DNA from: Deltaproteobacteria bacterium
Lineage (GTDB): Bacteria > Desulfobacterota > Desulfobacteria > Desulfobacterales > C00003060
Length of the DNA: 36,775 bases
Reading direction: 5' to 3'
Assembly: GCA_016930875.1 (NCBI GenBank)
Contig: JAFGFW010000054.1
Location: 1-36,775 of the forward strand
The position numbers were made by a program, and so were the translations under genes. This document shows, one piece after another, positions 20,642 through 24,105 of this stretch (position 1 is its first letter; each line of letters opens with the position of its first letter). The notes under the pieces were generated by a model. It saw nothing but the letters and a program-made list of their open reading frames with translations, did not search any database and had not been told where the DNA came from.

Positions 20642-20886
20642 GTTGGTTGGTCAGTGGGCATTTGTCATTGGTTTGATGCCGGACACGAGATGCCCGATTC
20701 CGGATGCCGGATACATGTAACCGGACCGATAGAAGTTTCTTCTTGTAAGGTGGGAGCATAGAGAAAATGGGGTTGTGTGTCAAGTCTCGGTGAATGGGGT
20801 AAAAATAGCTGTCCCCCTTTTGCGAATGGGGGAAACGACTGAAAATCCCCCTTTTGTAAAGGGGACTTAGGGGGATTTTGCAGGGA
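20642..20886. repeat. Spacer with modular repeats and a CCCCC/GGGGG hairpin
   Basis: GATGCCGGACACGAGATGCC to GGATGCCGGATAC (20675-20714) and the adjacent TTTGTCATTGG are reverse-strand copies of modules found at 27692-27760 and 31486-31543. A perfect 10-bp stem AAAATCCCCC/GGGGGATTTT (20842-20851 and 20870-20879) encloses CTTTTGTAAAGGGGACTTA-like sequence; a cousin lies at 34392-34412. No gene is supported. Confidence 0.6.
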
Positions 20887-20932
20887 ATAAAAAGAGTGAT
20901 GGGGTCAGGCTCAAACGAGCAAGACCCCATCA
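20887..20932 (-). terminator. Rho-independent terminator of the mtrAB-like operon
   Basis: Read on the minus strand, TGATGGGGTC pairs perfectly with GACCCCATCA (20897-20906 and 20923-20932). An inner GCTC/GAGC stem sits in the loop, and CTCTTTTTATT follows. It lies about 40 bases after the natural stop of the barrel gene. Confidence 0.8.
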
Positions 20933-20970
20933 TGAGTTCCACCTTCTAACCTGAAATCAGCTTCAAAGGC

Positions 20971-23091
20971 TTAAAACAAGTAAGACACGCTCAAATCCGT
21001 GATGTAAGCCTCTCCGGCGCCATCCTCAAGATAGGGTTGATCATCATCGTAGCGCAGGTAGGTAAAACCGCAACCAACTGAGACGTTATCTGCAACTAGA
21101 TAATTAGCTGCCACTGAGAGATCCGTCTGCGCAACATCCAGATCGGAATAAGTATGTACTGTGGAAAGGTCATAGTCGTAAGTTGCTGCCATGGCCGCAG
21201 GGACAGAGCTGGTGTAGTCGTTCAGTTGATCCATCTCTGCCGTAGAATCCGTATAAGTACCGGTAAAAGAGAGGTTAAGCTTTTCATTCACCACATAGTT
21301 AGCTGCCAGAATAAAGGTACTGGTCTCGGTCTCGTAATCTGTCTTTTCACTAAACGACTCAGACTGAGCCACGTTGGTAGCGCCAGCTCACCCATCAAAG
21401 ACGGGTACGCAGGCAAGGGTCTCCGTCTTTGTCCAGTCATAGACATAGGAAAGATTGAAACTCAACTTAGCCGTGGGAGCATACCACAGGTTTATTGATG
21501 GCATATGTGATTCCTGCTGCCAGTCTGATACGTCATCGTTTTCTTTGTCAAGCCAACGATAGTTGGCAGTCAGAGAAAGGTTGGGCTTCACAGACCAGAT
21601 AAGATCTGCCGTTATCTCATTTACATCGGTGGGCTGGTTGCTCAGGGTAGCAGTTCTGGTGTCTTGCCTGTCCGAATAATAGACAGGAAACGTAGCATTG
21701 GCCGGTTCGCAAGCGGCCTTCAAATTATTAAAAGGATTATCAATATCTTGCCACTTGTAACCGATCTTTGCCTTCAATTTTCGGTGAAGGCGACTGCTTA
21801 CACCTAACTTTACGGTGTTTTTCTCCGTTTTTGTCTCACCCACACCTACCTCATAATTGTCCCTATCAATCTGGTCCCACTCGTAGCCAAACTTGAGGGA
21901 GGTCTTTTTGGTCAGGCGGTAGCTGGAATCAAGACCGATGGTGGTTTCGTCCCGGGACATAGCCGATTTCCTGATGAAATCCGGGTCAACACCGGCAGGC
22001 CATGTCGTATGATTAACGTCTACATTCACATCATCGTTATCCAGAGACAAATACCTGAATTTCAGGCCAAGGTTCAAGCCTGGGAAGAGGCTGTTATTGG
22101 TAAGCCGGGCGGTTATGGTATCTGAATCCATCTCGCGCGAGTCATTTGTCGGCACGTCGGGATAGTTGTTACCATTTTCCACCTTGGAATGGACATAAGA
22201 TCCAAAAAAGGTGGTGTTTTGGGGAAGCTTGGCCATGACCTTAACCAGGTGGGAGTCTTTCTGGGAATCGGGTACGAGATTGTAGGCAAGGGTTGCGTCA
22301 TCATATTGCACACGGGGACTGAAATCGGCGCTCGTGACCGGATGTATCGCGTCATCATAAGCGTTCGTAGGCGTAGCCCCGTTTTCCTGGAAGTCCCTGT
22401 GAAAATAGCTGTATGCCAGGCTCATACCCCCAAACTTCATACTGGCTCCCATCTTATAATCTTGGGTTTCTTCATTTACTTCCCTTCCGTTGTTTACGAC
22501 ATGACAACCGCCACAGTGGCTTATGGCTAAGGCCTGCCGTTGCCCTTCTCTAGCCTCCCTGCGATAGTTAAAATGTACTTGCCCACCGGGCAGAAAGGGA
22601 AGGTTCAGGGTAGTGTCGCTCTTCAGCTCAGAACGCTGGATCATATAATCCTTGCCGACCTGCCAGTCTTTATGGCTTACCTTGGGCCCTCCCGCATGTG
22701 CTGAGAGATTTTCCAATGGATCATGGTCCAGCCGGTGCTCAAAGCGGCTATAGCTAAAATCTTCCATGATGATACGGCGCAAATCCGCCTCCAAATCATA
22801 CATATAATCATTATCCTCGTAGTATGATCCATGCAAATCAAGATAGACGTCTTTGTCCCTGCCGGTGGCGGAAAAATCCGCATGTGCTCCGGCACCGCCG
22901 TTTTCCAGGAATTCATATTCACCGACCTTTCCAGCGGAACTGCTATAATCCGTGTAATGGACACCTGGTGCAATCTTAACATTAAACTCGCCTTTTTCGT
23001 CTTTTTCATCGCCTTCTGCCCAAGCAATGAAGGTGAAAGCTCCCAGGAACACAAGGGCAGTGAACACGACGCCTATTTTCTTGCCCGTCAT
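20971..23091 (-). CDS. MtrB/PioB-like outer-membrane beta-barrel, with one in-frame TGA
   Basis: Outer-membrane barrel expected to sheathe the decaheme cytochrome encoded just upstream, as MtrB does for MtrA. The start at 23091 (MTGKKIGVVFTALVFLG) has AAGGAGG five bases before it, then a signal peptide ending near AWAEG. The mature part is a run of alternating amphipathic strands with Asp/Asn-rich turns. A TGA at 21388-21390 follows VPVFDG, yet the same frame stays open for 138 more residues of barrel-like strands and ends DLSVSYLF, with the terminal Phe typical of barrel sorting signals. Full length is about 706 residues, normal for MtrB. Shortened at the TGA it would lose several strands and the sorting signal. 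It also has an unusual HCGGCH motif (codons at 22499-22516), a possible heme site. Options are a recent nonsense change, a base error (TGG), or readthrough. Confidence 0.85.
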
Positions 23092-23139
23092 AATGACCTC
23101 CTTTTTCTCAATTTTCATCTGGATTCCAGGTAGAAAAAA

Positions 23140-24105
23140 TTATCGGGTCAAGGCCTTTCCTTGGCCGGTCACACCTTGTGAAGGTAGATCGGAACCGTGG
23201 ATCTCGGAATGGCACTGAGTACACTTGGTGGTATAGGCCATCTTCCAAGCTTGATCTCCAGCCGTAATAGATCTGCCATATATATCTGTAACCGTACCGG
23301 TATTGCCGGTTTTCCCTGCATGGAAGTGCAACTGATGACACTGCAGGCACAGGAAGGGCTCATTTTGTACGAGCAGGTTATTGGCTACGGTTCCGTGGGC
23401 ATCGTGGCAGATGGCACAATTTTCTACTACCGGCTCATGTTCAAAGGCAAAAGGCCCCTGCTTGGAGGCGTGACAGTTGAGGCAGAGATCATTCAGTCTT
23501 TCCTCGGTTTTGAGGTTTGCCAAAAAGGCGCCGTGAGGCTGATGACAGTCAGTGCATACCATCTTTCCCTCCCTGATCGGATGGTGGGAAGGATAGAGGG
23601 TCTTTGTCCGGATGTCCTGATGACAATCATTACAGAGCTTGGGCTCAGACTGGGCCAAAAGCCTTTTGGCACCCGAGTGGGCCCGGTGGCAGTCGACACA
23701 TGAAATATCATTGATGGAATGTTCACTTCCCTGCCAATCCATGAGAGTTCCCGAGGTGTGGCACTTCAAACAGATTGCCGAAGCTTCGCCCTTGGATATG
23801 TCTTTGAAACTTATGATGCTTGCCGGGTCTTCGTCTTGGGCGTGAATACTTCCCAGACCATGGCACGATTCGCACCCTTTACTCAGACCAACTACTTCAA
23901 AGTCGGCGATCCGGCCATGAATGGTTTTCTTAAATCCTTCAACTACCTCTTCATGACAATCAAGGCAGCTCTCATCTCCTACGTAACTGGCTCCTGGAGT
24001 GGTGGGAATCACCGCCCCCTTTCCGAGAGTCCCTTCATGAACACAGCTTCCACAGGCTAATATGAATAACCCTGCAAAAACCCCTGCCGCAAGCTTCTCT
24101 TTCAT
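23140..24105 (-). CDS. Decaheme c-type cytochrome, MtrA/DmsE/PioA-like
   Basis: Electron carrier that, in known systems, sits inside an MtrB-type barrel and passes electrons through the outer membrane. The 321-residue protein has ten CxxCH heme sites in order: CLDCH, CESCH, CLKCH, CVDCH, CNDCH, CTDCH, CLNCH, CAICH, CLQCH, CTQCH. The many extra His residues (HGRI, EHSI, HHPI, HEPV, HFHAG) fit bis-His ligation. The N-terminus (LFILACGSC) looks like a lipoprotein signal with lipidation at the first Cys, unlike soluble MtrA. AAGGAGG precedes the ATG. It is first in an operon with the barrel gene 48 bases downstream. Maturation would need the Ccm or Ccs system, which is not in this window. Confidence 0.93.

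Follow-up and report, generated by a model that had tools for sequence, protein, structure and literature searches.

The closest described relatives of the locus treated here are conduits that pair a multiheme cytochrome with an outer-membrane barrel. In the MtrAB conduit of Shewanella (structure 6r2q) a decaheme wire is combined with a 26-strand barrel; MtrA lies inside the barrel, its C terminus and heme A10 pointing to the outside, and MtrB has tight periplasmic turns, negatively charged extracellular loops and, between strands 1 and 2, a cap helix (PMC7198977). PioAB of Rhodopseudomonas palustris TIE-1 is described as a conduit of two parts, a single decaheme cytochrome and a single barrel. 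A further pair is OmcK/OmcL (GSU2203/GSU2204) of Geobacter sulfurreducens, known as OmcKL in HotSeep-1 and Seep-SRB2. We report the same gene pair, from the same two families (NF041028/NF041027), at positions 20887–24105 of contig JAFGFW010000054.1 from a Deltaproteobacteria bacterium (the whole 36,775-nt stretch analysed is termed the window), and propose that it quite probably encodes a porin-cytochrome conduit whose barrel is a selenoprotein, with its heme site and its selenocysteine (Sec) both extracellular.

The listing of the barrel family among selenoproteins and the naming of OmcKL as a putative conduit both predate this work. GSU2203/GSU2204 are up 2.68/2.36-fold on hematite and 1.65/1.53-fold on magnetite (PMC4070692). 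OmcKL has been named a putative conduit of the partners of anaerobic methanotrophic archaea (ANME), in a paper that takes OmcK to be extracellular and whose main text contains the word ‘selenocysteine’ 0 times (PMC10553843). The GSU2204 family appears in the selenoprotein lists of PMC9312934 and PMC13188914, where its motif is entered as ‘-’ and the entries state no function, and NCBIfam already names the family of NF041027 a (seleno)protein. No paper linking selenocysteine with the OmcKL conduit was found in the literature within reach of our search, outside which lay bioRxiv preprints and most subscription papers. ExtKL of Geobacter is likewise a predicted selenoprotein tied to outer-membrane electron transfer clusters, but it is a predicted five-heme cytochrome and not a barrel (PMC5877670). 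New here are the joining of the two lines of knowledge, the topology of the barrel and the indication that Sec is the likely older state in the family.

By their sequences the two genes are an OmcK–OmcL pair. The cytochrome, in which we count ten CxxCH motifs as an earlier note on this DNA had done, scores 454.8 bits against the OmcK profile NF041028 (cut-off 325) and 249.4 bits against the DmsE profile TIGR03508 (cut-off 192.2), and it matches MtrA (6r2q_A) with E 5.1e-47 over query residues 42–309. Its predicted model also ranks MtrA first (Z 10.4), which adds little to the sequence match because the model is mediocre (predicted local distance difference test, pLDDT, 67.1). OmcL scores 615.3 bits against NF041027 (‘GSU2204 family CXXCH-containing (seleno)protein’, cut-off 350) and 97.2 bits against PF11854, the broad family of MtrB/PioB barrels (cut-off 23). 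A comparison by sequence profile alone matches it to MtrB only weakly (E 5.5e-4). Its predicted model (pLDDT 82.9), built from 40 of 50 barrels and leaving out L086, which has no CxxCH, aligns to MtrB (6r2q_B) at Z 23.0 with a root-mean-square deviation of 3.0 over 578 residues; the next chain follows at Z 14.7, and many other outer-membrane barrels lie at Z of about 13–15, so that MtrB is the one match set clearly apart.

These profile and structure matches bear out the MtrAB-like conduit that the earlier note had read from the sequence, and they argue against an unrelated porin family for the barrel. Its further description of the conduit as PioAB-type holds for the two-part layout but not for the barrel family, since OmcL reaches 47.9 bits against the strict MtrB/PioB subfamily profile TIGR03509, far below the cut-off of 240.05; Sec and a barrel CxxCH are also unmentioned in the description of PioAB available to us. 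Compared with MtrAB of Shewanella, OmcL has a CxxCH and very probably a selenocysteine, OmcK is a probable lipoprotein and the operon has no MtrC-type surface cytochrome gene. The last point had been noted before and extends to the genome (97% complete), in which the MtrC/OmcA family has no match over cut-off, the best reaching 26.1 bits against 209.3.

In the standard code the barrel is spread over two open reading frames (ORFs), 23118–21388 and a second piece that ends at 20971. An in-frame TGA at 21388–21390 separates the two, and 138 open codons follow it. The match to NF041027 stops just before this TGA, and that to PF11854 crosses it. The earlier reading overlooked the codon, as it did a CGGCH motif in the barrel and the existing name of the pair. 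Standard gene calling stops OmcL at the same place, so that its last 138 residues, including five barrel strands, are lost.

The UGA is very probably decoded as selenocysteine. It stands at the same column, always in G-U-[AG], in 52 barrels: this one, five congeners (40–62% identical to this OmcL), 36 loci of the phylum and ten named loci. Cys replaces it in two members (L080 and L081), which are nested in the Sec clade beside a Sec member and therefore point to Sec as the likely older state. Downstream of the UGA the ratio of nonsynonymous to synonymous substitution (dN/dS) is 0.29–0.44 between this omcL and four congeners, indicating purifying selection, and 0.04–0.38 in six other pairs. The decoding-gene evidence covers SelA, SelB and tRNA: profile searches of the genome found SelA (616.8 bits) and SelB (379.9 bits), and a tRNA with a UCA anticodon is present, cut by a contig end. 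A change of genetic code was considered and rejected, as TGA ends 4 of 7 checked genes of the window.

Just downstream of the UGA lies a hairpin resembling a selenocysteine insertion sequence (SECIS), which may aid the decoding. When searched for over a wide range of distances, the loop of the best hairpin begins at nucleotide 25–27 from the U of UGA in 42 of 42 sequences; 10 further sequences have it at the same distance, although there the range was narrower and the position is partly given by construction. Loops are mostly GUU or GGU, and among the 52 barrels the stem has five pairs in eight, four pairs in two and six to nine in the others. Pairing reaches 77.9%, against 66.4% in shuffles, and covariation scores 0.331, with 0.146 for shuffles (0/500 for each). 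Ranked against in-frame stretches elsewhere in the same genes, the hairpin is above the 95th percentile in 36 of 42, and that of this omcL falls within the top 2.3% of its gene; both the covariation shuffles and the rank test treat the sequences as unrelated, ignoring kinship.

For the topology, OmcL residues are numbered as in P0001, from the start at 23118 given by a longer automatic ORF call, which adds nine residues to our preferred start at 23091. We count 26 long strands in the model, excluding six short ones that lie inside loops. As a general rule, an even strand count together with a final F on the last strand places both ends of such a barrel in the periplasm; OmcL has both features, and its termini are expected there. 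Even-to-odd turns of the model are all 2–7 residues long; odd-to-even loops span 3–39 residues, with 11 of 13 net negative, and a short helix (residues 62–65) lies in the loop between strands 1 and 2. These turn lengths, the loop charge and the helix agree with MtrB as described in PMC7198977. The CGGCH (strands 7–8) and Sec577 (strands 21–22) both fall in odd-to-even loops, and so are predicted from the model to be on the extracellular side. OmcL itself, judging from this motif, appears to bind a single heme c. As its distal ligand His128 is a weak candidate, because L086 keeps the His without a barrel CxxCH. In two Planctomycetota relatives (L148 and L150) the column of the barrel CxxCH holds a widely spaced C...CH.

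Several results weigh against this picture. The Sec loop is modelled at low confidence (block-mean pLDDT 57–61, with residues 578–583 under 50), and the model contains Cys in place of Sec and no heme. Constraint is stronger upstream of the UGA (dN/dS 0.19–0.23, against 0.29–0.44 downstream, in the four measurable pairs of this omcL), and two further pairs with this omcL are saturated. The tRNA-Sec score is just 47.8 bits (gathering score 47), under a tRNA-Trp match at 50.2, and ARAGORN did not call this contig-end tRNA. Two of five covariation measures for the hairpin are no better than shuffles (175/500 and 490/500). Folded as a single sequence, the UGA region of this omcL is ordinary (z −0.38) and its minimum-energy structure pairs differently, and an Rfam scan gave three matches, all below gathering score and none at the hairpin; because these two approaches gave nothing there, the evidence for the hairpin comes from comparing homologues.

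The two genes are regularly paired. Of the 50 barrels checked, 49 have a multiheme ORF immediately upstream, with ten hemes in 46, nine in two and eight in one (a shorter ORF), while at L078 no upstream multiheme ORF was found. All ten heme-motif columns are invariant in an alignment of 33 of the 49 cytochromes; by the strict pattern the cytochrome of L086 has just nine heme motifs. OmcK is probably lipid-anchored, as the earlier note had suggested from a lipobox. The residue it proposed (C18, in ILAC^G) is not the conserved one, and the anchor is better placed at C21 because this Cys is invariant in the 33 aligned homologues. Further multiheme genes occur near OmcKL in L048, L051, L083 and L084, and most loci have none in their flanks, which differ in length. 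In L051 a pair with 12 hemes each follows immediately downstream of OmcKL.

A search with OmcL of 60 genomes found it in its own genome, in 5 of 21 congeners and in none of 38 others of the order, so that among the genomes searched it is confined to the genus. Among 395 genomes, 44 places exceed the NF041027 cut-off, and 40 of them, including this one, were read (the partial matches G338, G259, G248 and G141 were left out). The other 39 comprise 36 with UGA, the two with Cys and one (L079) with neither; none of five places below the cut-off (L082–L086) has this UGA. Another 26 named loci included seven duplicates of loci already counted; ten of the 19 non-duplicates have UGA and seven do not, L143 and L146 having been dropped. 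The tree was made by a quick method, has several long branches and leaves out L143, L146, L086 and L148–L151. Three of its loci bear a Myxococcota label, which we do not count as a phylum, since it probably reflects the filing of unclassified Deltaproteobacteria. The barrels of L141 and L142, from bins under the names Armatimonadota and Acidobacteria, are almost the same, which suggests mis-binning or very recent transfer, and the ‘Hydrogenobacter’ locus L133, which groups with loci of the Desulfobacterota phylum, may be mis-binned.

By analogy with MtrA in MtrB, OmcK would be threaded through OmcL, probably with a lipid anchor, and electrons would cross the outer membrane through the complex. 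The heme site of the barrel and its Sec, at the outer mouth, would supply the outward redox contact given by MtrC in Shewanella; the barrel itself could do so because both sites are in loops predicted to be extracellular. Sec would then serve a partner outside the cell, be it a mineral, a nanowire cytochrome or another cell, as an exit site that works by redox chemistry or by binding metal. An exit site is the role for Sec that we prefer, though it is unproven, and the stronger proposal that a surface Sec near a barrel-borne heme is a working outward contact replacing MtrC is a tentative one that we hold to be rather doubtful. To our knowledge a surface loop of an electron-conducting barrel is an unusual location for selenocysteine.

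It is quite possible, if short of probable, that OmcL is a true conduit barrel whose Sec stands outside the electron path, in a Cys–Sec bond or in a protective role such as scavenging of peroxide or metal. Selenocysteine commonly works in redox sites, and a Cys lies seven residues upstream of it (C570 here) in 33 of the 52 UGA barrels. The remaining 19, among them the congeners L088 and L090, carry Ser, Val, Thr, Trp or Asn at this position, yet keep Sec. A local Cys–Sec pair was rejected as the general role, being unlikely where the upstream Cys is present in just these 33 and varies even within the genus. Far less probable is a decayed barrel gene (a pseudogene) or an assembly error behind the TGA, leaving a truncated protein or a Cys or Trp codon. 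The source assembly is fragmented (212 contigs), and L060, L071 and L080 have isolated in-frame stops elsewhere that resemble errors or decay (the extra UGA of L080, in a variable stretch, stands where two Sec members have Arg and is probably one or the other). Against this, the same UGA column and hairpin recur in 52 barrels from many assemblies, the codons downstream are under purifying selection and in NCBIfam the family model is that of a (seleno)protein; the conserved UGA and the downstream dN/dS also dispose of a frame-shift.

The published placement of OmcK poses a different challenge to a conduit threaded through OmcL. In the view of PMC10553843 OmcK would be extracellular and OmcL a plain porin, with another periplasmic cytochrome feeding the electrons; the paper states the extracellular position for HotSeep-1, and a table of PMC13194489 lists OmcK likewise, so that both count against our reading. 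The conserved lipobox Cys would suit an outer-membrane lipoprotein of this kind, but a lipid anchor is also compatible with the inner leaflet beside the barrel. OmcK moreover scores above the cut-off of the DmsE/MtrA model and aligns to MtrA over the span given above, and MtrA sits within its barrel (PMC7198977). We consider an extracellular OmcK improbable.

Should Sec take part in electron exit, as in the reading that we prefer, this would account for two-part conduits that have no surface cytochrome, and mineral respiration or direct interspecies electron transfer would be tied to selenium. Were it a working contact, extracellular electron transfer would depend on selenium supply for those bacteria whose conduits work this way, at least within Desulfobacterota and Acidobacteriota. 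Single bins under the names Arcobacter, Armatimonadota and Hydrogenobacter may widen this range or be mis-binned. The function of the OmcL family, which is missing from review lists, becomes testable in Geobacter sulfurreducens.

The features of the locus are collected in Table 1. The coordinates that the earlier note gave for the unit are correct, and the 48-base gap that it reported between cytochrome and barrel holds if the barrel starts at the ATG at 23091, which has AGGAGGT just before it. Its rho-independent terminator is likewise confirmed, as a strong hairpin followed by a T-run (0/200 shuffles). A simple terminator scan did not list this hairpin, because its loop is longer than the scan permits; the scan listed 5 others, against 4.0 expected.

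Table 1. Features of the omcK–omcL locus, in window coordinates
Feature	Position	Strand	Basis
omcK (321 aa): c-type cytochrome with ten hemes, homologous to MtrA/DmsE, probable lipoprotein	23140..24105	-	Profile and structure matches
Cys21 codon, probable lipidation site	24043..24045	-	C21 invariant in 33 aligned OmcK homologues; lipidation inferred
omcL: 26-strand MtrB-like outer-membrane barrel, very probable selenoprotein, TGA read through, start ATG 23091 preferred	20971..23091	-	NF041027, PF11854, model
Codon of His128, candidate distal heme ligand (in model at outer end of strand 5)	22735..22737	-	His in 52/52 UGA barrels
CGGCH in barrel, residues 202–206, candidate site of an eleventh heme c, in strand 7–8 loop	22501..22515	-	CxxCH in 52/52 UGA barrels
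In-frame TGA, very probably read as selenocysteine, residue 577 (P0001), loop between strands 21 and 22	21388..21390	-	UGA column in 52 barrels
SECIS-like hairpin, 8 pairs, loop GUC beginning 26 nt after U of UGA	21354..21372	-	Homologue comparison
Intrinsic terminator of operon	20886..20932	-	Hairpin 20897–20932, −25.7 kcal/mol, z −6.2, then CUCUUUUUAUU

Elsewhere in the genome, cytochrome c assembly genes and other multiheme cytochromes, both of which the earlier note had proposed to look for, are present. There is one PF11854 barrel, and a further 19-bit piece of NF041027 lies on contig C23. Large multiheme proteins on other contigs have 26, 16, 12 and 12 CxxCH motifs. Those with 26 and 16 (L153:560-2506(-) and L155:115-1368(+)) consist of DmsE-like repeats and may be long wires or conduit partners; the 12-heme proteins adjoin one another (L154:2263-4141(-)) and have no NCBIfam match at E 1e-10. 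Another gene of the same genome, a PF01578 cytochrome c assembly gene (G000:C186:6335-6937, L096), contains a single in-frame TGA in a frame of 748 codons, which may be an error, decay or another UGA gene.

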